Part shown: positions 35,177 to 55,083 of the stretch, piece after piece
How positions within the stretch are numbered: position 1 is the stretch's first letter
Layout of the letters: every line of letters begins with the position of its first letter
Assembly: GCA_963556145.1 (NCBI GenBank)
Contig: OY744463.1
Location: 3,658,001-3,722,000, forward strand
Length of the DNA: 64,000 bases
Direction of reading: 5' to 3'
From: Hygrocybe punicea
Taxonomy: Eukaryota; Basidiomycota; Agaricomycetes; Agaricales; Hygrophoraceae
Translations under genes and position numbers: made by a program
Notes under the pieces: generated by a model
The model's database searches: none
What the model was told of the DNA's origin: nothing
The model's input: the letters and a program-made list of their open reading frames with translations, nothing else

Positions 35177-35880
35177 TGTGACAGCAAGTTTGATTGTAGA
35201 CCCGGAAGAGGAATCTATGGAAAGGGTGATCAGCTAAGAAGTGATCTGAGGAATTCAGTTTCTATAGAGAAGTCTAATCAATCCAACCAAAATCCAGGGG
35301 TTCTGGAATCAGAGGGAGAGTGTGGGGGAAGGGATGAAGAGAGGCATAGATGATATGAAGAGAGGACTAAGAAATAGAACTTTAAGATGTATTTCTATCT
35401 CTCATAATAGTACTACTTTTATACTACTATGAAGGATCCTGTGCTGTAGTAACTATGTACAACAAGCAAAGGCTGTAAGTGATAGGGGCAAGTGGAGAGG
35501 AAGATAGGAGGAGTGGTGCTATGTACTAGGAGACAGGAAACGAAGATATATGATATACAACTATATACATACTGATTCTGGGTCATTATGGACATTGCAT
35601 GGCGAGCAGGAACAATTCTGGAGGTGGAATCTGGAGTGGAATTGATAGGAGGGATCGGAATCGAGTGGAATCGATGATATGGGAATGGGAATGGACAGGA
35701 ATGGAGTCAGATATGAAGAGGATACAGATCCACACGATCCGGAGCCTCTACATCGGGTCAGGACTCCGATTGAGACCATCCCTGGTCGATCCAAATGAAA
35801 TAACAAAGATCCTGGAGTCATGGGAAGAAATAAGTGTAAGCGATGTCAAAAATGGATCACCTGCCTCCTGCCGTTGGTAA
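35177..35880 (-). mobile_element. LTR-B family copy, inverted, with adjoining internal sequence
   Basis: 35177-35752 is the reverse complement of the LTR at 50176-50772 (starts TGTGACAGC, ends CCGGAGCCTCTACA). 35753-35880 matches, in reverse, the internal sequence next to the 3' LTR of element B (around 50110-50175: 'gatcgaccagggatggtctc' and 'gagtcctgacc'). So this is the 3' end of an inverted LTR-B element, not a solo LTR. Confidence 0.8.
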
Positions 35881-36290: not shown

Positions 36291-36329
36291 GGTATGTGGC
36301 TCAATCCTGTGGACCAACATGGGCCCACA

Positions 36330-37320
36330 TTGCAGGAATGACTGGCCCTAGATCAACCCAATCCTGCAGGAAGAGCTGGAGCCAGGTCAACCCAGTGCTG
36401 CGGCAAGTGCTGGACCCTGGTCAACCTGAGCCTGTAGCGAGAGCTGGATCCAGGTAAACCCGGTTCTGCAGCAATAGTCGGAGCCAAGTCAACCTGCCCT
36501 GCAGCAAGAGCTGGACCCAGGTCAAACCAGAGCTGCAGCAATAGGTGGACCCAGCTCAACCTACAGCTGCTGGACCTGGGTCAACCCAGTGCTACAGCAA
36601 TATCTGGGCCCAGGTCAACCCAGTGCTGCTGCAATTGCTGGATCCTGGTCAACCCAAGCCCTGCAGCAAGTGTTGGACCTGGGTCAACACAATGCTGCAG
36701 CAAGAGCTGGACCTGGGTCAACCCAGTGCTGCAGCAATATTTGGACCCCAGTCAACCCAAGCCTGCAGCAAGAGCTGGTCCATGGTCAACCCAGTGCTGC
36801 AGCAAGAGCTGGACCCTGGTCAACCCAGTGGGGAAGCAATAGCTGGATCTGGGTTAACCTAGTGCTGCAGCAAGAGCTGGACCCTGGTCAACCCAGTGGG
36901 GAAGCAATAGCTGGATCTGGGTCAAACCAGTGCTGCAGCAATATCTGGACCTGAAGCAATACCTGGACCCCAGCCACCCTACCCTGCAGGAAGTGCTTGG
37001 CCTGGGTCAACCCAGTGCTGCAACAGCTGGACCCAGGTCAACCAAAGCCTGCAGCAAGAGCTAGTCCATGGTCAACCCAGTGCTGCAGCAATAGCTGCAG
37101 CCAGGTCAACCCACATTGCTTGAACAACTGGACCTGGGTCAACCCAACCAATCCAGAATAGCTGTCCTGGGTTAACCTACCCCATGGAAGAGCTGACACT
37201 GGGTTGACCCACCCAGCCCCCTTTGACCAGCAAGGGCTGTACCTGGGTCAACCTACCACCCCACATTTCCCCAGAAAGAGCTGTCTTTTGGGTTAACCTA
37301 CCCCCCCAGCAAGCAACTGG
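36330..37320 (+). repeat. 34-bp minisatellite, about 25-28 units
   Basis: A head-to-tail repeat with core GTCAACCCAGTGCTGCAGCA followed by AGAGCTGGACCCTG (34 bp). Units vary in sequence, with some shortened (25 bp) or 35 bp. A two-unit higher-order duplication (GTGGGGAAGCAATAGC variants) occurs at about 36820-36930. The array runs up to the protease remnant of element A and so sits where its gag should be. 34 is not a multiple of three, so a translated product would repeat every 34 residues. Confidence 0.85.
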
Positions 37321-37325
37321 GCTAT

Positions 37326-37781
37326 GTGTACCTACCTTTTGCAACTATATCTGCGATTGGGTTAACCAAAATGACTGGGTCTACTGTTGAGTGCATCCTC
37401 AACAACAGCTCCATGATCATAAGCATGCGACGCGATACTTGGGAAAAACTTGGTTACAGCCTCCAAAACATGAAGATGCAGATGCAATCAGCAAACAAAA
37501 GTGACAATGACACCCTCGGCTGGATCGCTAACCTTAAATTCACCTTCGGCAACATTGATCTGTTCCTCCAAGTCGAAGTAGTCAACGACGCCCCCTACGA
37601 GATTCTCATTGGCTGCCCCTTCTTCATGCTTTCCGAGGCCCTCACGAAGGATTACAAAAATGGAGAACAACAAGTCACAATCATGGATCCAAACACCGGT
37701 GCCATCATCACCTTGCCCACCATTGAGCACAACCAGAAGAACCGACGAGAGCGGTCCGACACTGGAAAGCTGGATTTTTAG
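37326..37781 (+). pseudogene. Retropepsin-like protease of element A, catalytic residues lost
   Basis: Recognisable as the protease of agaricomycete Ty3 elements from TVECILNNSSMIISMRRDTW and APYEILIGCPFFML. The active-site turn would be D-N-G-S in the family; here it reads N-N-S-S. Both changes (D to N, G to S) are explained by G-to-A transitions. The frame then shifts before the RT. Confidence 0.6.
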
Positions 37782-40966: not shown

Positions 40967-43667
40967 TGTGGTAGGGAGATCTGGCAGATCATGTGACCTT
41001 CCCACGGTTGGATTCAGTAGATAGCTCTGTTTGGCAGTCAGTAGGATTAGGATTGATCTAAGCCACTCGAGCTTAGCGATTGAGCTTGAGGACTCTCTGC
41101 TAGTCCATTGTGGTGATAAGAGTGCGATTCGACCTTTAACACGCTTGCTTCTGCTTTTGTCTCAGCATCTCAATATCTCAATGTCTCAGTCCCCAGCATC
41201 TTAGCATTTCAGTGTTCTTGCATTTTGTGTCTCTGCGTCTCTGCGTCTTTAAGTTTTCACGCCTGCGTCTCCGTGTTTTACACCCTGCGTCCTTGCATTT
41301 CACATTTGCATGCCAGTCCTCTTACTTTTCGCAATTGACATGCCAGGCCCCAGCAACAAAAAAGCTGCTACAAAGAAAGCAAAAGCCGCGCACCATGTCA
41401 AGCCAACTCGAACTGCCACACTTAGCGAATCGACTACGATAGACAAATACACAGTCGAATATAAAGATAACATCCACGAAGCTGCCGTCAACAAGTTCGA
41501 CGCTTCATTCGACAAGGCCAATGCCTTAAAAGAATTTTTCGAGATCGCTTTTGCTCTTGGACAATTAACAGCAGCCGAACAAGCATCCAAAAGAGCTGTG
41601 AAAGCAGATGAAGACCAATGAAGAGCCCATGACGATGGACGATTGGTAGGATACGAAGCAGGGTATGAGGAAGGCAAGGACTTTGGCCAATACGACAGCT
41701 ATACCGAAGGGTACAACGACGGCCGTTCAGATGCAGCCTGCCAATCACCTGACACTGCACAAACCAGCACACCATCAGTGAAGATATCAGCAACCACAAA
41801 AACGGAATCACCAACCCAACACAGTCAGCCCGTCTATACATCTGTGTCATCACAAACAACAGCACCAATCTTCCTTTCCGTAACAACACAAAACGGCTCA
41901 GCTACCAGCACACCTTCGCCAATGCCCATGTACACCCACAAGATGACACAAGCCGTGCCATGCACATGCACCACCCCACTCGGCACCACCCAAACGCCGC
42001 GCTGTGTCCCAGCGCCTACTCAAACAACCCCATCCACCTTTGTGTTTGCGTCAGTACAAATGGACGAGCCACAAGCGCATCCACTGGCACCCAGTGCACA
42101 TAAGACCACCCACATGGCACGCACGCAGAAACACATCTCAACAAGCTTCAGCTCACTCACCCTCGCCAAAAACGACCCCCGCTGCACCAGAACGTGCCAC
42201 GTCACCAGGCCAACCACGTATCACAGTACCAGCCCACACACTTGCATCGAGAATGGCCCCACGCGTCCCAGCACATTCCCCGTCGCCCAACACTGAATGC
42301 GAAACCTTCCATGTCCCAATGCCCACCCAAATGACCCCATTCTCATGCAGAAACGCGTCCCAGCGTGTCCCAACAAGCCCACCCACTCAAGATTCAACAC
42401 CCCCGCTGCAAAATGAGTCCATACACATCACAACACACAATCCCACCACGCCGGCCCATGCTCACGCTCCAAAAATGACGACAATCGTGCCAGATCATGC
42501 CACACCATCACCAGATACTCCAATGTGTATCCCGCTGCCCAACATCCAACAGGAGACATGCCACACGCCCGTGTTCACCCCAAACCCCACACCCATGCAA
42601 CAAAACACATCAGAACACGTCCAAAACCCCAAACCTGCTCAGAATGAACACTCACACGCACCCATATGTGCCCAGAGTCACAACATCGCCGTCCAGATGC
42701 CGCAATTGCGAATGCCAAGGCCAAACAATGTTGAAATGCAAGCTAACGTGAACGTGAGGCCCAACGGGGCGAGAAAGGCGAATGTGCAAATGAGAAGTGA
42801 CACACTAACCGAGACAGTGGCGAACGAGGAAACCAAGATGAAAACGAATGAGGAGATATGCTGAAGTAAAGGAAAGACACGGCAGGAGCTTGAGGACGAC
42901 GCTGTTCATATGTCCCCGCTCACCTCACAGTGTCCTAATGTCTCCTCAAATATGAATTGTGCCCAATTCCCCATGCCAACCTCTGCGCGATTCGATTGGG
43001 CCAAGGAGGCCTTGTCTATTCCATTCTGCTCTATTTTTCCAACTACATATGTGCAGTGCGACCTTTCAGCCCTTCGTTCTGGCTCACGACAACCATTTGC
43101 TACTTTACAACATCGTACTTGAAGATCGCGTCGACAAGTCCAGCCCCGCCGTGTTTTCCCCATCTCCATGGGACCTGCCTGCACATGAAGTCACCCATCT
43201 GGCATCGCACCTGGCTGACCCATCATCACCAGACCACTCTACATGACAAACTCGACCCCATCAGGATTCCCTTATCTTGACTGGGACCAGGACCCTCGTC
43301 TCTCAGACTTGAGTAGGGCTCTCCAGGCCCTAGGTTGGAAGAAGCCAAGATAGGCATTTTTGTTTATTTAATATTCTTTTTTCTTTTTCCATTGCTTCCC
43401 CTATCTGACTCTTTTCCATTTCTTTTCCATTTTCTTTATTCCTTTCCATCTCTCTTCATGTCTTTCTGTCTCCCTCTTTTCTCTTTTGCTGGCAGCAGGG
43501 ATGCTGCCATTTTGGAGGAGGGGACATGTGGTAGGGAGATCTGGCAGATCACGTGACCTTCCCACGGTTGGATTCAGTAGATAGCTCTGTTTGGCAGTCA
43601 GTAGGATTAGGATTGATCTAAGCCACTTGAGCTTAGTGATTGAGCTTGAGGACTCTCTGCTAGTCCA
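40967..43667 (+). mobile_element. Small LTR element with 141-bp LTRs (TRIM-like)
   Basis: LTRs at 40967-41107 and 43527-43667 both run TGTGGTAGGG to TAGTCCA and differ at three places, all CpG versus TpG. Target duplication CCAT is at 40963-40966 and 43668-43671. A purine tract GGAGGAGGGGACA (43514-43526) precedes the 3' LTR, and a TGG-starting primer-site candidate follows the 5' LTR at 41111. The 2.4 kb interior has no gag or pol, only one orphan protein remnant. It must be mobilised in trans. Confidence 0.9.
41340..43350 (+). pseudogene. Orphan protein of the 141-bp-LTR element, broken
   Basis: Starts MPGPSNKKAATKKAKAAHHV, then a helical part (EAAVNKFDASFDKANALKEF), an in-frame TGA after KADEDQ, and GYEAGYEEGKDFGQY with TEGYNDGRSD. 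A long Thr/Pro/Ser-rich linker follows, with a frame change between about 42000 and 42300 after which another open frame runs to 42864. Near 42957 PMPTSARFDWAKEAL and near 43262 LDWDQDPRLSDLSRALQALG appear to be its middle and C-terminus. I cannot assign a function. It resembles unnamed proteins often linked to repeats in agaricomycetes (from memory; not searched). Confidence 0.55.
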
Positions 43668-44048: not shown

Positions 44049-45884
44049 GCGTGCTATTGACTACACGCGTGAATGGGAAGTCATACTCACTGTTGATTCC
44101 TCCGTCCTCGGAGTTGGTTTTGTTCTCATGCAAATCCATGCCGATGAGAAATGTTACCCGAATTGCTTTGGTTCAATATCGTGGAATGAACACAAAGCCT
44201 GATACTCCCAGTCTAAGTTGGAGCTCTACAGCCTCTTCAGGGCCCTCTGCACCTACCGGATCTTTATTATCGGTGTCTGTAACCTCACCGTTGAAGTCGA
44301 CGCCAAGTATATAAAAGGGATGCTCAACAATCCTGACATCCAACCCAATGTGACCATCAACCGATGGATAGCCAGTGTCCTCCTATTCAATTTTAGACTC
44401 ATTCATGTACCTGCTTCCGCACACAGTGCACCTGATGGACTCTCCAGACACCCTTGCACTGCAGAAGACCCCAAGGAAATTGACAACTCTGATGATTGGC
44501 TCGACCACTCCTACAGTTTCTTTATGGAAGTCGTTAACTACCAACCCATCCCCATGCCATCTAAGCTGATTGCCGTATGTGGCCATTGCCATACCACCAC
44601 AGACTGGCTCCAAGAGTTACCAGCTGTCCTCATCTACACAAACCAGGAAACCATTTCCGACATACCATGATCTGATAAAGTGCGTGCAGCTGATGCTCAT
44701 CTTGCCCTCGTCGAGACCTGGTTACGAGATCTAACCCGACCCACGAACCTCATGGATGAAGAATACCATCTCTTCCTATGATACTCCCTTGAGTTCTTCA
44801 TCACCGATAACAAGCTTTGGTGTAAAGACCATCACGGGAAACACAAGCTCAACCTTGACCACAACGTTAAATGGTATGTCCAGTCTTGCCATCAGTGCCA
44901 AGTATGGCAAATGCGTTATCACCACATTCCGCCAACCGTCGCTACACCAGCCTCACTCTTCTGCAAAGCATACATTGACATGATGTTTATGCCATGATCC
45001 GGTGGCTATCAATACATTGTCCAAGCCCATTGCTCCCTATCCACTTACCCTGAGTTTCAAATGCTACGCCGCAAGACCGGTTCGACCATCGGCATGTTCC
45101 TGTTTGAAGATATCTTATGCCGTTGGGGCACTCACCAGGAAATCATTACCAACAATGGCAAACCCTTTGTGGAAGCACTCGACTACCTTGCAACCCGCTA
45201 TGGTATCTGGCACATCCACAACATTTCACCCTATAACTCACAAGCGAATGGACCTGTCGAGCATCGTCACCTATATGTCTGGGAGGCCATTATGAAAAGT
45301 TGTGACAGGGATGAAAAGAAATGGCATACTGTAACTCATTCCATATTTTGGGCCAAATTGGTCACCACACACAAAAACCTCAGGTACTCGTCCTATTACA
45401 TCACACATGGAGTAGAGCTGCTTTTTCCATTCGACTTTGCCAAAGCTACATACATGGTTCTGACACAAGGTGTGATGTCAACAACCGACCTCATAGTCAT
45501 CCGCGCCCCCCAACTTCGCAAAGGAGAGGCCGACCTCGATCGAGTCAAAGAAAAACTCACCAAGTCTCAGCTTGCATCTGCCCGACAATTTGAACAGAAG
45601 TACACTAACACAATCAACACCTTCAACTTCAAACCTGGCCATCTTGTTCTCATCCAAAACTCATGTATCGAAATGTCTCTCGATCGAAAAGCAAAGCTGT
45701 GATACTTTGGGCCCATGATTGTCATCAGGAAAACTCACGGCGGATCCTACATACTAGCCAAACTCGATGGTGCAGTTTCCAGATCCTGATCTGCTGCTTT
45801 CTGGGTCATACCCTACCATTCCTGCTCGAAAATATCAATACCGTTGGACAATTTCTTACAATACCCTGATGCCGATGATACCAA
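44049..45884 (+). pseudogene. RNase H and integrase of element A, decayed
   Basis: RNase H: EVILTVDSSVLGVGFVL, SISWNEHKA, TGA, YSQSKLELYSLFRALC, VEVDAKYIKGMLNN and HVPASAHSAPDGLSRHP. Integrase: WYVQSCHQCQVW is the CC half of the zinc domain, but the HH half appears deleted. The catalytic core has SGGYQYIVQ, DILCRWGTHQEIITNNGKPF and NISPYNSQANGPVEHRH; the usual Asp of TDNG is Asn here, again a G-to-A change. Several TGA codons sit where CGA is expected. The frame is cut at 45884 by element B and ends at 50842. Confidence 0.8.
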
Positions 45885-46480
45885 TGTAGAGGCTCCAGGC
45901 TGTCTGGACCCGAATCCTCTTCATATCCCACATCGTCCCCGTCCATTCCCATTCATGTATCGTCAATTCCACCTGATTCTGGTCCTCTCCATCGATTCCA
46001 CTCCGGATCCCCCTCCAGAATCGTTCATACTCAAGATGCGATGTCTCTAACAACCTGGAATCACTACGTATATAGTTACATATGATATATCTTCGTTTCC
46101 TGTTACTTAGTACATAGCACCATTCCTCCTATACTCCGCTCCACTCCACCCCTATCAATTACAGCCTTTGGTTGTAGTACATAGTTACTACAGCACAGGA
46201 TCCCTCTCAGTAGTATAAAAGTAGCACATTTATACTACAAACAATATAGAAAATACAGGTTATCACTCCCCTTCAGTTCTATTTCTTAGTCCTCGCTTCG
46301 TATCGTCTCCATATTAGTCTTCATACTCCACTCCCTTCACTTCCCCTCTGATCCGGAACCCTGGATTCGGGTTGGATTGACTAGACACTATAGAAAGACT
46401 TTACTCCTCTGATCACTTCTTAGCTGATCACCCTTTCCATAGATTCCCATTCCAGGTCTACAACAGAACTCGCCATCACA
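45885..46480 (+). repeat. 5' LTR of element B
   Basis: 596 bp, TG...CA ends. Near-identical to 50176-50772. TATA-like box AGTATAAAAGT lies at about 46212. Confidence 0.9.
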
Positions 46481-46658: not shown

Positions 46659-48320
46659 ATGACGCATGGATTGATGCCTCTCCGAGGTGATCGTTCAGCC
46701 CTGACGTTTCACGGTGACGAACATGACCTTCCCCGCTTCTTTGACGAAATTGACATGCTCGGCTCCGACTGTGGACTCACGGACACTATGAAAATTCGCT
46801 ATACGCTCCAGTACCTCAATAACAACGATTACGTACTTTGGTCTACCCTACCCGCCGCTTCAGCAAAAGACTTCATCGCTTTCCGACGTGCCGTTTTTGC
46901 CTTCTATCCTGGTGCCACGGACAGTATTCGGTATACGATCGCGGATCTCAATCAATTGATTAGACGACAATCGGCTTATGGTATAGAAAACAAGACGGAC
47001 TTAGGACAATATTTCCGGGACTTCATACGCATATCTGGAGTACTATATGACAACGGCCGTTTATCGGACAAGCAACGGAATGAGTATTTTGCCAATGGAT
47101 TTGACTCATATCTTCGTCAACGTGTTGAAAAGCGACTCCATTACCTTCTTCCCAGTCATTACCACGACGATCCGTACCCGGTTGATATTTTCCACGACGC
47201 CGCGTTATTTTTACTTTCCGGTTACCGTTCCGTTCCGGAATCCGTTGTCACTGCAGCCCCCATTGCCATTTCCAGTCCCGATTCCGGTCCCGCACCCATA
47301 CCTGTCGCAGTCATTTCACCTCCAGAACAGATCCCGTCCTCAATCCCGTCCTCAATCCTGTCCTCGATCCTGCCCACTGTCATTCGTTCCGTCCCCCACG
47401 TTCATTCCGGTCCTTCGTATACTCTGTCCCCATCATCGTGTTCCCCGTCCCCGTCCATTCCGGTGCCCATCGAGACCGTTATTTGTTTACAGGTTTTGTC
47501 ATCCAGTCCCGTGTTGTTCCTGTCCAAGCCCCTTCCCGATTTATCAATGCCGGTCATCGATTCCGTCTTGCCTTCCGGTCCCGTTCCCGATTTATCCATT
47601 CCGTTTCCTATTTCGTCCCCATCGTCTCCAGTTTTGTCCCCTCCGGTTTCCGTCTACGAACTCATGCCGGACCCACTCCCATTTGCTCCGGATTCTCTAG
47701 ATATAGACATTCCGTCCCCGTTATTGCCGCCATATTGTCTCCCCTCCCAGTCTATCGAGATTCCGTCCAAGTTGGTTGAGTATCCTGTACCCGTTTCTAT
47801 TCCGGATCCGTTACCCCCTCCGTCCCCGTCACCCCTTGTCGTTCCCGCTTCCGTATCGTCTCCGGTTCCCTCCATGCCCGCTTGGGGCACTTTGTCGTTT
47901 CCGCCCACTTGGGGCACCCCGTCATTTTTAGACCCGTCACGTGGCACACCCGTTATATGGGATCGTGTTGGTATCGGCACTCCAGTTCTCAAATTTTTAT
48001 TGTTCCTCGTTTCCGTCTTCATTCTACTTTGTCATCGCATTTTGGACCTCTGCCCCCTTGACACCTTGCTCGAATATTTGCAAGAAGTTCTCTGCCTCCT
48101 CTCATCATTCCGCCTCCGACCTTCTTTCAGAAACTCTTGTGGGGATATAGACCCGTTTCCGTCACCCATTTTTGCGTTTTTGTCCTCCGTTCCGCTTTCC
48201 ATTCACGCTCCCGGTCCTCACTTATTTATATTTTCGTTTCTGTTTATAGTTTTCTTTGTTTCCTGTTTGTTTCGGTCCCATTCCATGTCCGTTGTATTCC
48301 GGTCCCGCCCTCCACCTTGA
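46659..48320 (+). CDS. Gag-like protein of element B
   Basis: Open for 553 codons from MTHGLMPLRGDRSALTFHGD. The first 190 residues look like a retrotransposon capsid: LPRFFDEIDMLGSDCGL, KIRYTLQYLNNNDYVLWSTL, DFIAFRRAVFAFYPGA, LGQYFRDFIRISGVLYDNGR and RNEYFANGFDSYLRQRVEKR. The rest is Ser/Pro-rich. No CCHC zinc knuckle is visible. From about residue 440 the sequence becomes oddly hydrophobic (LLFLVSVFILLCHRIL), which may mean a frameshift before the natural end. The start Met is the first in frame; an earlier start is possible. Confidence 0.7.
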   Translation: MTHGLMPLRGDRSALTFHGDEHDLPRFFDEIDMLGSDCGLTDTMKIRYTLQYLNNNDYVLWSTLPAASAKDFIAFRRAVFAFYPGATDSIRYTIADLNQLIRRQSAYGIENKTDLGQYFRDFIRISGVLYDNGRLSDKQRNEYFANGFDSYLRQRVEKRLHYLLPSHYHDDPYPVDIFHDAALFLLSGYRSVPESVVTAAPIAISSPDSGPAPIPVAVISPPEQIPSSIPSSILSSILPTVIRSVPHVHSGPSYTLSPSSCSPSPSIPVPIETVICLQVLSSSPVLFLSKPLPDLSMPVIDSVLPSGPVPDLSIPFPISSPSSPVLSPPVSVYELMPDPLPFAPDSLDIDIPSPLLPPYCLPSQSIEIPSKLVEYPVPVSIPDPLPPPSPSPLVVPASVSSPVPSMPAWGTLSFPPTWGTPSFLDPSRGTPVIWDRVGIGTPVLKFLLFLVSVFILLCHRILDLCPLDTLLEYLQEVLCLLSSFRLRPSFRNSCGDIDPFPSPIFAFLSSVPLSIHAPGPHLFIFSFLFIVFFVSCLFRSHSMSVVFRSRPPP

Positions 48321-48448: not shown

Positions 48449-49837
48449 CTACTCCCTTCTCCTTTCATCAAGTTTCGTGTCAATCATGTCGAGTTGGCCG
48501 AAAATATGGGCTTGGTTCGTGCGTAGTCGGTTCAGCTCCTTTGTCCAACGGGTTAGCTTCGATTGGACCTCCGCAACGTACTCCGAGAGGCCATCCGTGA
48601 TCGTCAATATCTCCCTCTGCGTTTCCGTTGCCATCTTGCACACTGCCCAGACGTGGTTGTTGATTCCGGCTCCGATCCGCGGGTGCTTGAACGGATTCCC
48701 TTGCCTCCCATTGTCCCGTTCCGATTCCATATCCGGTTCGACATCAGTCAACGTCCGTTTGCTTGTCGACGCCTCTCCGGCCCGTAGCTTGGGCTTCTTC
48801 ACCGGCTTCGAAATCCTCTCCGTGACGATCTTTCTCTTTGGACTTCCCACCTTCGCCTTCCCTTTCCGCTCCACTTTCCCAGTTCCGGTGGCCGGTCCCT
48901 TCGTCGATAACCCACAGCGTCGTTTAAGCCTTTTGCATCAATCACATGCATACCCCTCGATTCCGCGACAAACCGCATTGGTGGTCACGCACGCATTGCA
49001 TTGCCAGATCCGGAACGACTGCATGTACTACGGATTAGTTAGGCACCATGGATATACAAGCCCGTGAGATATTACTTACTTTCCCTTCGGTCCCGTGTCC
49101 CCGTTCCTGCTCGCGTTCGAAAAGTCGTCCCCGCTATTGTACTCCCCGTGTACAGTTTCGTTGTGCCAGTTGACCCTTTTATCCCGGTTGGCCTTTTTGT
49201 TCTTAAGAGCTTGGAGCCTTTCGTATTTCTGGAGTTGTTGCTCGGCCCAATCCTCGTCCGTATCCTCGTCCTCGTCCTCGTTTCCGCGATCGATGGTTTT
49301 TCCGGTCTCCTCCCAGTCCCTTGCCGCGGCTGCTTCAGCCTCCCTTTTCGCTGCCTCTGCCACCTTTGCCCTTTCCACCTCCTCAATCCGCTTCGCTTCC
49401 GCCCTCCTATTTTCCTCCTCCTTTTCCTCCTGCAAACGTCTCGCTTCCTCGACTTCCCGACGCACCGCCTCTTCCCATTCCCGCTTCTTGTACTCCTCAC
49501 GATTCCGCAACCATTCCTCGACCTCGACCACCATCTCTCCGCCCATCGAGAAGTCCCTCGGTTCCGTCACATCAATTCCGTTGTCCCGGATTTCCGTCGA
49601 TATTCCCCAGTAGTTCCGCTGCGTGGTATCATTAGTTCAGGTCGTTTACGAGAACAGGATCTCTTACCATGGCCCGTCGTCGTCTCACCACCCATTGCCG
49701 TGCCTCGTTCTCGAATCCATCACATACAATATCGATTCCGGCCGCGTCGACTTCTAGTAACTTGGCTACAGTGTTCTCGAAGTCTTGCCACATTTCCACA
49801 TTGAGAGTATTGAGGAATTTGTTGTATTCCGTCCACA
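48449..49837 (-). pseudogene. Antisense spliced Zn2Cys6-like accessory gene of element B
   Basis: Runs opposite to gag. Exon 1: MWTEYNKFLNTLNVEMWQDF to EARQWVVRRRRAM. Intron 1 (GTAAGA...CACGCAG). Exon 2: RNYWGISTEIRDNGIDVTEP, then VVEVEEWLRNREEYKKREWE and a long Glu/Arg/Ala coiled coil, ending GDTGPKGK. Intron 2 (GTAAGT...CTAAC...ATGCAG). Exon 3: QCNACVTTNAVC, then YACD-TGA-CKRLKRRC, giving cysteine spacing CX2CX6CX7CX2CX6C, exactly that of fungal Zn2Cys6 clusters. Then SPKRKIVTERISKPVKKPK (basic) and a C-terminal coiled coil ending DTKLDERRRE. The TGA inside the cluster and a one-base loss at the intron 2 donor break this copy. Function unknown; a DNA- or RNA-binding regulator is an inference. 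Confidence 0.75.
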
Positions 49838-50175
49838 TCTGGCATTGGTGTTGGTGTTTGTTGGGTTTGTTGGGCTTGTTGAGGTTGCTGTCGAGATTGT
49901 TGAAGTCGCGTTGAAAAGTTTTCTTGTTTGTATTTGTTGCCCCGTCACGTGACCGTTGTTCCTTTATCCAGCCGTTTCGCCCCACCCTCTTTTAGAGGCT
50001 CAGGACCACTGCTTCCCGACGCTTCAATACCCGCTGGCTTCGATCTCGTTCACGTTGTACCATTGTTTCCGCCCATTTTCGACATCGCCTCCGCTCATTT
50101 ATTCCCACGACCCTGGTATCTTCGTTATTTCGTATGGATCGACCAGGGATGGTCTCTATCTGAGTCCTGACCGGA

Positions 50176-50772
50176 TGTAGAGGCTCCAGGCCGTCTGGAC
50201 CCGAATCCTCTTCATATCCCACATCGTCCCCGTCCATTCCCATTCATGTATCATCAATTCCACCCGATTCCGGTCCTCTCCATCAATTCCACTCCGGATC
50301 CCCCTCCGGAATCGTTCATACTCAAGATGCGATGTCTCTAACAACCCGGAATCACTACGTATATAGTTACATATGATATATCTTCGTTTCCCGTTACTTA
50401 GTACATAGCACCATTCCTCCTATACTCCGCTCCACTCCACCCCTATCAATTACAGCCTTTGGTTGTAGTACATAGTTACTACAGCACAGGATCCCTCTCA
50501 GTAGTATAAAAGTAGCACATTTATACTACAAACAATATAGAAAATACAGGTTATCACTCCCCTTCAGTTCTATTTCTTAGTCCTCGCTTCGTATCGTCTC
50601 CATATTAGTCTTCATACTCCACTCCCTTCACTTCCCCTCTGATCCAGAACCCCGGATTCGGGTTGGATTGACTAGACACTATAGAAAGACTTTACTCCTC
50701 TGATCACTTCTTAGCTGATCAACCCTTTCCGTAGATTCCTATTCTGGGTCTACAACAGAACTCACCATCACA
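50176..50772 (+). repeat. 3' LTR of element B
   Basis: 597 bp, pairs with 45885-46480; one extra A and mostly CpG-type transitions. Confidence 0.9.
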
Positions 50773-50842
50773 CCGACTCAAGCGATCTTGATGATCCGAC
50801 GTACCCGCCCTCCATAGCCTCCTCACCAGACAATGATTAGGC
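50773..50842 (+). pseudogene. C-terminal end of element A pol
   Basis: Reading DSSDLDDPTYPPSIASSPDN then D and TAG, this continues the frame YPDADDT that is cut at 45884. It fixes element B as an insertion in the last codons of element A pol. Confidence 0.75.
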
Positions 50843-50912
50843 ATTTCCTTTATTTCTGTCCATTTTATACCTCTATTTTATTTAGTTCCTCTTAGTTTTC
50901 TAATGATACGAC

Positions 50913-52512
50913 TAGTGAATGGCATGGGTATGGGTAAACCCGTGGGTTTTGCCGTGGGTTTAGCCATGGGTCTGGGTCTGGGTCACAGTTTTGTGACCTG
51001 CTGTAGAGGCTCCGGATCGTGTGGATCTGTTTCCCCTTCATATGACACCGTTCCCATCCATTCCCATTCCCGTATCATCGATTCCATTCAATTCTGCTCA
51101 TTTCCATCAATTCCGCTCCGGATTCCACCTCCGGAATCGTTCCTACTCAAGATGCAATGTCCCTAACGACCTGGAATCAGTACGTATGTAGTTATATATC
51201 ATGTATCTTCGTTTCCCATCTCCTAGTACATAGCACCACTCCACCATTCCTCCACTCCACTACCCCTATCATTTACAGCCTTCGCTTGTAGTACATGGTT
51301 ACTACAGCACAGGATCCCTCACAGTAGTATAAAAGTAGCACATTTATACTACAAACAATATAGAAAATACCAACACCCAGACATATAGAAAATACCCATA
51401 CACACATATAGAGAAATACAGGATACCACCTCACGTCTTATCATCCTGTCTCATTTATACTTGCCTTTGTCATTTCCCCCACACTCACCCTCTGACTCCA
51501 GAACCCCTGGATTCGGGTTGGATTGACTAGACCTTTCTAAAAAGAAACTAAATTCCTCTGATCACTTCTTAGCTGATCACCACTTTCCGTAGATTCCCAT
51601 TCCGGGTCTACAACGGAACTCGCCGTCACACAGCAGCTGTACCCATACCCACAATGGGTAACCTGTGACTACAGGTCACACAAGTGATGCGTTGCGTTCA
51701 AGTTGAACATGACACGTTGAACAACAAGGCAGAGACCAGTATGAAGCTGGTCTCTGCTAAAGGTAAGTTGTTTTCTTTCTTTGACATCATTACTTACGAA
51801 ATTTACAGATACAACTACAGCTTCACCCAAGAAACGCAAACACAAATGCAAATGCAGATGCAAATGGCCACAATGAAAATGACGACGACGCAAACAATGA
51901 TGACGACAGCGTGGCGAGTGCAAGGGCTATGGCGGCAATGCCAAGCAAAGCAAGCCCAGGGGAGTCCGATCGCCAGGTGAGTCGACAATGCAAATGATGA
52001 CAACTAAAACAACAACAACAACAACAACAGCGATGGTGAGCACAAGGGCCACGGCGGCAACGCCAAGCAAAGCAAGCCCAGGGGAGTGGTGCACCCACCC
52101 CCCGGTCACCAGGTGAGTCAAGGACTAATCTATTCATTTGCCACTTACTGGCAATTCCCCCAGCCCAGGACCACTGTTAACAACTATGGCCCACGTGTCC
52201 AACGACGCAGCCCACCCATCAAAATGTCTGGATTGGCACACCATGCTGGGCCAGCCCATTCCACCTCACGAACACACGGTGACACATCAATTGATGTGCA
52301 TCCGGTGTCACGAGGTCGAATCGGTGGTGTGGGCTGGCAAAAATAAGAGAGACCTGAGGGTTACCCACCATGGGTATGGGTCCCGGGTAACCCTTGGCTC
52401 GGAATGTCAGTACCTGTGACAAAACCTGTACCTGAGGGTGGGTACGTGTTTTCAACAGGTACGGGTACGGGTACCCCTGGAATTACCCAGGGGTTACCCG
52501 TGCCATTCACTA
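50913..52512 (+). mobile_element. hAT element 3, non-autonomous, 1600 bp
   Basis: Perfect 12 bp inverted ends TAGTGAATGGCA. Flanked by GATACGAC (50905-50912) and GATATGAC (52513-52520), an 8 bp duplication with one CpG transition. Subterminal GGGTATGGGTA motifs mirror the other hAT elements. It carries a solo LTR-B (51002-51630) and no transposase. Two similar blocks of about 80 bp (51915-51985 and 52038-52118, sharing 'gccaagcaaagcaagcccag') form a tandem duplication. Around 51830-51870 are short CAAATG/CAGATG repeats. Confidence 0.88.
51002..51630 (+). repeat. Solo LTR-B inside hAT element 3
   Basis: Starts TGTAGAGGCTCCGG and ends CGTCACA; 629 bp, diverged from the element B LTRs by short indels. 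The 4 bp flanks (CTGC and CAGC) do not match well, so the duplication is not confirmed. Confidence 0.8.
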
Positions 52513-52654: not shown

Positions 52655-54160
52655 TTAGAGGTGGCCGGTCTTGAAATCACATTTCATTGACACCAGCATC
52701 ACCGATACCCACTCGTGATCCACACGAAGCCTATTGAACTGCTGGCCAAACTGGATTAGATGCTTATTTACCTCAGCACCCAGGGTCCCTAACTCCTCTG
52801 TCAGCACCGCGAGTTGCATGGAAATGCTCCCGAAACTTTCTATCACCCCTGTCAAATGGGTTGGTTCCAGAATCTGCCCTAAGCCTTTTTGTCAGCCGCT
52901 CTGCATCTGTCTCCTCCTCCTCTTCATCCAATTCCGACTCCACCTCTTCGACCCACCGCTTACTCGTCGATGCCTGCACAGGCCTTGTCTGGATCGGTTT
53001 AGTGGTAAACAAGAGTGGTTTCCTCATACCACCTGCCACCTCTTTCCCCTTACCGGTGTCCGTCTTGCATCATCCCCCACCCGTCTGATGTGTTGTGTTG
53101 GTACACCTCTTTTTCAGCTTGCAGCATCATTTGCATATGTATCCCATAATGCCTTGGAACATCTCCTGAGCCTTGATGCAGTTTGTGCATGCTTGCAGAG
53201 GAAACGGCCCGGTGAACTGTTATGAAGCTTAGTGATTAAGAACAAATAACCAACAAGAGAACTCACCATTGTACCTGCCAAATCCTCAATCTCTACTCCC
53301 GGCATATCCACATCACCTAGATCAGCCAGTTGCTCTGGTTCCGGGTTGATGGGGCCTTCTTCTGATCCAACTGCGACTTTGCCCTCCAGAATTGGCCTGG
53401 TCTCCTGCTCAACCACGACCGATGTGTTTGCGAGGTTTGCATGAGCTCACCGCTCCTCGCTGGCCTGCCATCAATACGTGGCTGCCTCCCTCTCAACCCG
53501 GTCTGCCTCCTGAGTCCACTGCTGTGATTCCTGCTCCATCCTAAGCCTCTCCCACCTCTCCTCTGCAGCCACTCACCGTAACTCTGCCTCTGCCTGTGCC
53601 TGTGTCTCCACCAACTGTCTTGCCTCCTCTTCCTGGGCAGCCACCTCCTCATCTGCCCGCCATCTAGCCTCTTCCTCTTCCTGCCTCTCTTGTTCAGCTG
53701 CCTCTTTCAGCCACTCTTCGACCTTGCTTGTGTATGATTGATGGTCAGCCCATAGCAGCGGCGTTACTGGCCTGATACCCACAGCTCAGAGCTCTGCAAC
53801 AATTCCATAAGCATGCTAGTGGGATGATATTAGCTACTCTAGGACACGCATCATCGGCCGGGGTACTCACCATCACCTTCTTACAACCACTTATCTATTG
53901 CCTAGCCAACCCTTCATTGCTGTCTATCATCATCACAAAGTCATCGTTGTGATAGTGTTGCCACAGCTATAGCCGATGTTTTCTGAAAAATGGCCATATC
54001 ATTGCCATTTTTCGAAAAACATTGGCTATAGTCGTGGCAACACTACGTTGTGAAACACCATAACTGTGTTGATGGCCTCTTCATAGTCCACTCGGATGTC
54101 AGGTTCAATGCTCTTGATGAATGCGAGGAATGCATCGTAGGTTTCAGACATGGTGGGCAT
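52655..54160 (-). pseudogene. Antisense spliced Zn2Cys6-like accessory gene of element A
   Basis: Opposite to pol and next to the 3' LTR. Exon 1: MPTMSETYDAFLAFIKSIEP, DYEEAINTVMVFHN, [93 bp MITE], DDFVMMIDSNEGLARQ, TAG, ISGCKKVM. Intron 1 (GTGAGT...TTGCAG). Exon 2: VEEWLKEAAEQERQEEEEAR, coiled coil, then DVDMPGVEIEDLAGTM. Intron 2 is 53266-53217 (GTGAGT...AACAG), in frame. Exon 3: ACTNCIKAQEMF, GYICK-TGA-CCKLKKRC: the same spacing as element B's cluster with the third Cys replaced by Phe. A further TGA precedes an acidic/basic stretch (STSKRWVEEVESELDEEEEE) and the coiled-coil end (TEELGTLGAEVNKHLIQFGQ). Clearly homologous to the gene in element B. Confidence 0.72.
53953..54045 (+). mobile_element. 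93-bp palindromic hAT MITE
   Basis: Inverted arms of about 42 bp starting TAGTGTTGCCAC with a 9 nt loop; the arms mismatch at a few sites. Perfect 8 bp duplication CGTTGTGA lies at 53945-53952 and 54046-54053. Removing it with one duplication rejoins F-H-N and D-D-F-V of the antisense gene in frame. Confidence 0.9.
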
Positions 54161-54321: not shown

Positions 54322-55083
54322 TGTAGAGGGCTCTCGGCCCTGAGACCATAAACTTGATATCTCACAGATCTGCTTGAACCCAACATAACCCGATGGATAC
54401 CAACTAGCATGGCCACTCATGTACAGCATCAGTCCATCTCCTAAACTCATGGAATCCCAAATATCGCAGATGGATCTCATCGGACTCGATTCCCAACTTC
54501 AGACTTGCCTTATATACACATCCCCTCATCCTTTTGGAGATATGTATGAATCTTTAGATCTTTTTCTTGGTTATTTGCTTTCCCCTCCATTTTCCTGTCT
54601 TCGTCACATTGCAACCTCCTCTTCATTCCCCTATTTCCATTTCCCTTTGTTCTCCCTCATCAGTCAAGGACTCTCATCTTAAATTAGATACACATTTTTG
54701 TAGTATAAAAACGGTGCCCAAGTGCCATGTCAAAATAAGAAACTAGTTCCCTGTTTCCCCCTCACTCAGAATCAGTCTCTCAGTAAACTCCTTCCCTTGT
54801 ACAACTCATCAGTTCTCTCGACACTCTCCCCATCATTCTGCCGTCCATATTCTTATACCGCTCATCACCCAACACCTGACCCACTGTACCCGACAATGTC
54901 GGCTTCGTCGGCTTAGACCGGTCTTGATAGATAGTAATAGTTTTACTCGGCGGCTTTCTCCTCTTTGTCCCTTACCACTTTACTGAAGCTTGCTAACTAT
55001 TCCACCGTCACTTCTATGCTGACACCCTCCCCCCCCCCCGGTTAGGATCATTGTTCCATAGCCACCCCAACCTCGCCACTACA
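54322..55083 (+). repeat. 3' LTR of element A (LTR-A)
   Basis: Starts TGTAGAGGGCTC, ends CTACA; preceded by the purine tract CCAAGGAGA. Has 'gtagtataaaaacgg' (TATA-like). Shares blocks with 39416-44048 and 33860-34329, including 'tcacttctatgctgacaccct' near its end. Confidence 0.75.

Follow-up and report, generated by a model that had tools for sequence, protein, structure and literature searches.

A conserved, intron-containing antisense gene for a putative zinc-cluster protein in two LTR retrotransposon families of Hygrocybe punicea

Can an LTR retrotransposon carry, antisense to its own genes, an intron-containing gene for a zinc-cluster protein, and what would such a protein do for the element? 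The question was raised by a 64,000-nucleotide stretch of the genome of the basidiomycete Hygrocybe punicea (the window), which lies in contig C3 of the 92.2-Mb, 42-contig assembly that we searched for further copies. An element in the window, which we call element B (family B), holds an antisense gene, AS (Table 1). The antisense exons, both introns and a CX2CX6CX7CX2CX6C cluster with an internal stop all lie where the original prediction, made from the window, had placed them. AS had also been described as opposite gag; rather, it lies downstream of gag in convergent orientation and without overlap, the two stop codons being 128 bases apart.

Table 1. Features of element B, its antisense gene and the surrounding A-type element in the window
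Feature	Position	Strand	Remarks
Integrase end of A-type element	44998..45884	+	resumes at 50772-50918
Left target-site copy of element B	45881..45884	+	CCAA, 4 bp; read by eye
5' LTR of element B	45885..46480	+	starts TGTAGAGG, ends CATCACA
gag-like ORF of element B	46659..48320	+	
AS exon 3	48449..49027	-	six-cysteine cluster, basic linker, C-terminal coiled coil, stop codon
AS intron 2	49028..49079	-	GTAAGT...CTAAC...TAG
AS exon 2	49080..49618	-	charged coil; small deletion at 3' end in window copy
AS intron 1	49619..49667	-	GTAAGA...CTAAT...CAG; 49 nt, phase 0
AS exon 1	49668..49838	-	57 aa; refined coordinates
CACGTG motif	49946..49951	-	first base 113 nt upstream of AS start codon
3' LTR of element B	50176..50772	+	
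Right target-site copy of element B	50773-50776		CCGA, 3 of 4 like left CCAA; by eye
Decayed AS of A-type element	52658..54151	-	between integrase and 3' LTR
3' LTR of A-type element	54322..55083	+	

The window copy of AS carries two lesions. Its exon 3 reads CNACVTTNAVC...YACD-stop-CKRLKRRC, with an in-frame stop inside the cluster, and a small deletion lies at the exon 2/intron 2 junction, so that splicing at the conserved sites loses the frame. With both lesions this copy is a pseudogene, the decayed form of an antisense gene that is itself real. Between the two LTRs of element B, which are 97.3% identical, there are a gag-like ORF and AS but no pol. On both sides the flanking sequence carries on the integrase ORF of a different element, and we therefore read B as an insertion into the end of pol in an older element of A type. 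The latter has a decayed AS of its own, which matches residues 1-426 of the A-type AS at 39.7%. The window also holds a lone related LTR (51002-51630, about 78% to the B LTR), the 3' end of a further, minus-strand B-type element (35177-35855) and, in the A-type pol region, two 141-base repeats (40967-43667), 98% alike and 2560 bases apart, which are probably another nested insertion.

On the evidence of two copies, family A is an autonomous Ty3/gypsy LTR retrotransposon; this assignment takes the RT from the A-type ORF of the window, and the LTRs, target duplication, primer site and integrase frame from a young copy in contig C1 (C1:3916876-3926711). In the PDB, the window RT ORF matched retroviral Gag-Pol/RT chains (E 1.5e-12 to 3e-11) and the Gag-Pol of Ty3 (E 7.6e-8). 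The young copy has 795-bp LTRs that are 100% identical, a 4-bp duplication (ACGG), the sequence TGGAGCCCACCGCGAGGAAT following the 5' LTR, a gag-protease frame, and an integrase within a 1257-aa frame. Between integrase and 3' LTR it carries an antisense AS with the same CX2CX6CX7CX2CX6C pattern, open across all three exons. This is exactly the place, between pol and the 3' LTR, where intact copies had been predicted to lie. Among the integrase-end matches, 35 of the 150 scored were 100% identical over 99 aa, many of them in the 1257-aa frame; together with the identical LTRs of the one copy examined, they point to a recent burst of the A-type element.

For family B we read, at other copies, 20 stretches each about 10 kb long, one pair of them overlapping. 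In 11 of these (L022, L023, L028, L029, L031, L034-L037, L039 and L040) the order LTR, gag, antisense AS, LTR recurred, and self-comparison recovered the LTR pair wholly or in part. The remaining stretches held tandem copies, a broken copy, or no LTR pair detected at the settings used, and L038 had no gag match. The window RT and IN queries found no match in any of the 20 stretches. The PR query matched L025, L032, L038 and L039, only via its residues 1-62, mostly a part of the ORF that lacks protease homology (homology to A starts at 37389, residue 55). By this layout, family B is non-autonomous, consisting of LTR, gag, antisense AS and LTR without pol. Plant TR-GAG elements are likewise non-autonomous, with LTRs, a primer site and gag and without pol, and family B has all of these features of a gag-only LTR element; it differs from TR-GAG elements in having an antisense gene, held in common with an autonomous family.

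How might an element without pol move? Families A and B have in common the first LTR bases, TGTAGAGG, and 4-bp target duplications. For the nine B copies whose ends were read, six duplications are exact by eye, two differ by one base (one being the CCAA/CCGA of the window copy) and one could not be judged. The 20-nt sequence TGGAGCCCACCGCGAGGAAT that follows the A 5' LTR is exact in two of these nine copies, altered in six and damaged in the window copy, and the sequence preceding the 3' LTR is similar in A and B. These likenesses fit mobilisation of B by A-type machinery. The gag proteins of A and B are 44% identical over 202 aa, in the N-terminal part of B gag. The B gag ORF has at least 151 matches in the genome.

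Several further observations concern the B elements. At its C-terminus, in the window (47931-48317) as at 20 other loci, B gag is hydrophobic, with two membrane-like stretches by eye, and this region is alike across the copies matched; some B copies have gag open frames of 875-898 aa, as against 589 aa in the window copy. A head-to-tail B array at C35:1850066-1872331 has five gag and five AS matches at 4334 bp spacing, which six LTR matches separate and flank. At window 36297-37388, a 34-base unit is repeated in tandem about 18 times, and some 160 non-protease bases follow. This segment of about 160 bases occurs again in or beside four B copies (L025, L032, L038 and L039), three of which also have dense direct repeats; a separate repeat thus seems to insert into these elements.

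AS itself is abundant: for exon 2 alone, the genome gave 275 matches or more. The first outcome that had been named as refuting the original proposal, absence of the gene from other copies, therefore did not occur. We scored 150 exon 3 matches of each type, from 501 first-look candidates for B and 485 for A, and by hand count 104 of the B-type and 131 of the A-type matches were stop-free in the matched part. With such numbers of exon 2 and exon 3 matches, the pattern is not due to chance. Its position is equally regular. Gag and integrase partners were drawn from at most 150 matches per search, so the counts of matches without a partner that follow are upper bounds. For A-type exon 3, 142 of the 150 scored matches lay within 2.5 kb of an integrase match on the other strand, eight had no such partner, and in no case was integrase on the same strand. 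This tally adds 24 further integrase matches to a first set, in which 121 of 150 had opposite-strand integrase at 1012-1173 bp. For B-type exon 3, with the gag C-terminus included, gag lay opposite at 471-733 bp in 128 of 150, 22 had none and none had it on the same strand; with N-terminal gag only, 119 of 150 had it opposite within 6 kb (118 on the expected side), one on the same strand, and 30 had none. AS thus lies antisense and 3' of IN in A, and antisense and 3' of gag in B. No AS homologues turned up in the two viral and prokaryotic collections scanned outside the genome.

The exon-intron structure is conserved as well. AS consists of three exons with two conserved phase-0 introns, and both intron positions match between A and B. 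Of 16 B copies compared, 15 share the position of the GTAAGA donor of intron 1, which our script did not locate in the other, and all 16 have a GTAAGT start and a CTAAC branch-like site in intron 2. In A, intron 2 starts with GTGAGT in 13/13 copies; intron 1 was found in fewer, as some starts or sites differ or were missed by the search pattern. Conceptual splicing yielded a stop-free, full-length protein for five of 15 B copies (L022, L024, L031, L033 and L037) and for three of the 13 A copies tried (C1, L049 and L055); in most other A copies the expected splice sites were not located by script. Introns that survive retrotransposition would fit splicing only from an opposite-strand transcript. 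Its promoter may lie between the AS start codon and the 3' LTR, a distance of 170 nt in the young A copy. The region ahead of the start codon is conserved and holds a CACGTG motif. In 14 of 15 B copies the motif precedes the start codon by 98-122 nt, and in the young A copy by 91 nt; B copy L033 and the decayed A copy of the window (CATGTG) have altered versions.

We then asked how the reading frame has been treated by selection. Pooled NG86 dN/dS values were obtained for exon 1, exon 3 and gag from gap-free, near-full-length matches, sets in which badly broken copies are under-represented. In the AS frame, exon 3 gave 0.213 for B (18 copies) and 0.331 for A (13 copies), values similar to that of B gag (0.248, 17 copies), and exon 1 gave 0.268 (six B copies) and 0.155 (11 A copies). 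The exon 3 ratios are far below 1, and the original suggestion of a gene under purifying selection withstands this test. Frames with a third position other than that of AS gave 0.66-2.7. The frame with the AS third position gave 0.24-0.45, always higher than the AS frame; it is open in 6/6 B exon 1 copies, where this sense frame has a dN/dS of 0.36, in 6/18 B exon 3 copies, and in no A or gag copies. The third-position excess persists without CpG columns. These ratios indicate that purifying selection preserves the AS protein sequence in both families.

Intact copies encode 426-432 aa. The protein begins with a conserved N-terminal domain, continues with a charged coil and the CX2CX6CX7CX2CX6C cluster, and ends with a basic linker and a predicted C-terminal coiled coil; the basic stretch and coiled coil that had been described after the cluster recur in both A and B copies. 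The A and B proteins can be aligned along their whole length, at 27% identity in the C-terminal half (E 1.7e-14) and 31% over the first 97 residues (E 2.7e-11). None of the six cysteines varies among 20 open exon 3 sequences chosen for comparison (11 A and 9 B, with 26-28% A-B identity), and all six are kept in 29 of 31 gap-free copies (16/18 B and 13/13 A); loss of the cysteines, also named beforehand as a refuting outcome, was therefore not what intact copies showed. Zn2Cys6 domains have the spacing C-X2-C-X6-C-X5to16-C-X2-C-X6to8-C, into which AS falls. The claim of a Gal4-type cluster holds for spacing, with two reservations: the basic half comes second, and the Pfam score lies just under the cut-off. 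For the cluster taken alone, Zn_clus (PF00172) scored 20.5 bits in A and 19.9 bits in B, below the curated cut-off of 21, and for the whole protein 11.3 and 9.6 bits (E 0.4-1.4). It matched 11 of 12 isolated clusters at E<1, the best at 4.3e-4, with 5.2e-4 and 7.8e-4 in another scan. Above the cut-off, Zn_clus has 18 matches in the H. punicea genome and none in 14 control genomes, which, like the short introns, fits a fungus. Among solved structures in the PDB, the profile search gave the AlcR zinc cluster as the best match (E 0.056).

The profile match also reveals how the cluster is arranged. The second CX2CX6C unit, which is basic and contains the conserved CxRCxRLKxRC, aligns to profile positions 1-14, and the first unit alone gave no Zn_clus match; hence, the halves appear reversed relative to the Gal4 type, with the basic residues in the second unit and not in the first, where a Zn2Cys6 domain would have them. 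AS thus resembles fungal Zn2Cys6 factors of the Gal4/AlcR type in its six-cysteine spacing followed by a basic linker and coiled coil, and differs in the order of the halves, the sub-threshold score and the position of the cluster mid-protein (first cysteine at residue 244 of 426). AF2 models place a short helix in each unit (residues 11-19 and 29-41 or 29-45), at a low pLDDT of about 45-72, and a structure comparison, with two chains aligned, returned no match. A long helix was predicted with confidence at residues 116-191 in B and 122-184 in A.

The sequences show a real gene that is old in its lineage and has been maintained. We favour, at somewhat better than even confidence, the reading that AS is a spliced, coding antisense gene of a Ty3/gypsy lineage, that it pre-dates the A/B split, and that its product would be a DNA-binding regulator of its own family. 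An element-encoded regulator of this kind is the most likely role because AS combines a zinc-cluster-like domain, a basic linker and a coiled coil, and because it has been kept in the pol-less family B. Transcription of AS would begin at a promoter in the interval that separates its start codon from the 3' LTR; the product may dimerise through the coiled coil and enter the nucleus by way of the basic linker; the Zn2Cys6-like cluster would bind DNA of the LTR or flanking region of its own family, and this binding may tune the transcription or silencing of that family. Family B lacks pol yet has gag and AS, which suggests that AS is specific to its family and, unlike the polymerase, cannot be borrowed from A. 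We hold more tentatively, short of even confidence, a narrower form of this proposal: a lineage-borne, family-specific antisense transcription or anti-silencing factor with reversed zinc-cluster halves, which B kept because only the polymerase is borrowable.

A sub-case of the own-family regulator is an anti-silencing DNA-binding protein that keeps its family unmethylated, rather than a classical activator or repressor. VANC of Arabidopsis VANDAL21 and TnpA of Spm are element-encoded anti-silencing proteins, which AS would resemble as an element-encoded DNA-binding protein acting on its own family; they belong to DNA transposons and have other folds. Among 95 differences between the paired LTRs of eight B copies, 56 are CpG transitions, which suggests that these elements are probably methylated, and selection keeps AS in both families. 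A DNA-binding role is itself conjectural for AS, and we consider this version unlikely.

Two readings would give the cysteine domain other work. It might be a trans-supplied RNA-binding or packaging factor that replaces a nucleocapsid knuckle: we saw by eye no zinc knuckle (CX2CX4HX4C) in B gag, A gag has the knuckle-like CLFCDDPFHRIRDC, and AS is basic beside the cluster. However, A has both the knuckle-like motif and AS, the spacing fits Zn2Cys6 and not a CCHC knuckle, and a spliced antisense gene is an odd source of a structural protein, all of which makes this role improbable. Alternatively, AS might use its coil and zinc domain as an adaptor between proteins, which would guide integration or bring the pre-integration complex into the nucleus. 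The long confident C-terminal helix and the charged coil would suit such an adaptor, and we recognised by eye no chromodomain in the A integrase C-terminus (L041); the conserved basic half of the cluster looks instead like a DNA contact, and we judge an adaptor very improbable. That the antisense RNA alone matters, through double-stranded RNA and interference, with the frame incidental, would suit the convergent arrangement of all 270 matches with a partner found (270/270), but is contradicted by the selection test, with AS-frame dN/dS of 0.15-0.33 and a third-position excess that also holds outside CpG columns, and it can be given hardly any credence.

The regulator that we favour has partial parallels in other retroelements. 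HBZ of HTLV-1 is a spliced antisense bZIP gene of a retrovirus, and AS shares with it the antisense orientation, a start near the 3' LTR, and a basic region with a coiled coil; by its conserved splice sites AS would be spliced as well. AS differs in having a zinc-cluster-like domain and not a bZIP (Pfam scans up to E 10 gave no bZIP match), and in belonging to fungal Ty3/gypsy elements and also to a gag-only, non-autonomous family. The plant Ty3/gypsy elements Grande, RIRE2 and Retand carry antisense extra ORFs, and like them AS is an extra antisense gene between pol and the 3' LTR; unlike them, it has two introns, a six-cysteine cluster and a fungal host, and is kept in a non-autonomous partner.

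Element genes of this sort carry an annotation risk, as they may be counted as host transcription factors. A spliced antisense gene of the zinc-cluster type in a fungus, kept by purifying selection in an autonomous family as well as in a non-autonomous one, would extend these systems by a new branch. It offers a testable claim about the means by which such a family regulates its transcription or evades silencing. The two families form a natural experiment: with diverged LTRs and diverged versions of AS in one genome, the matching of regulator to target would be directly testable.
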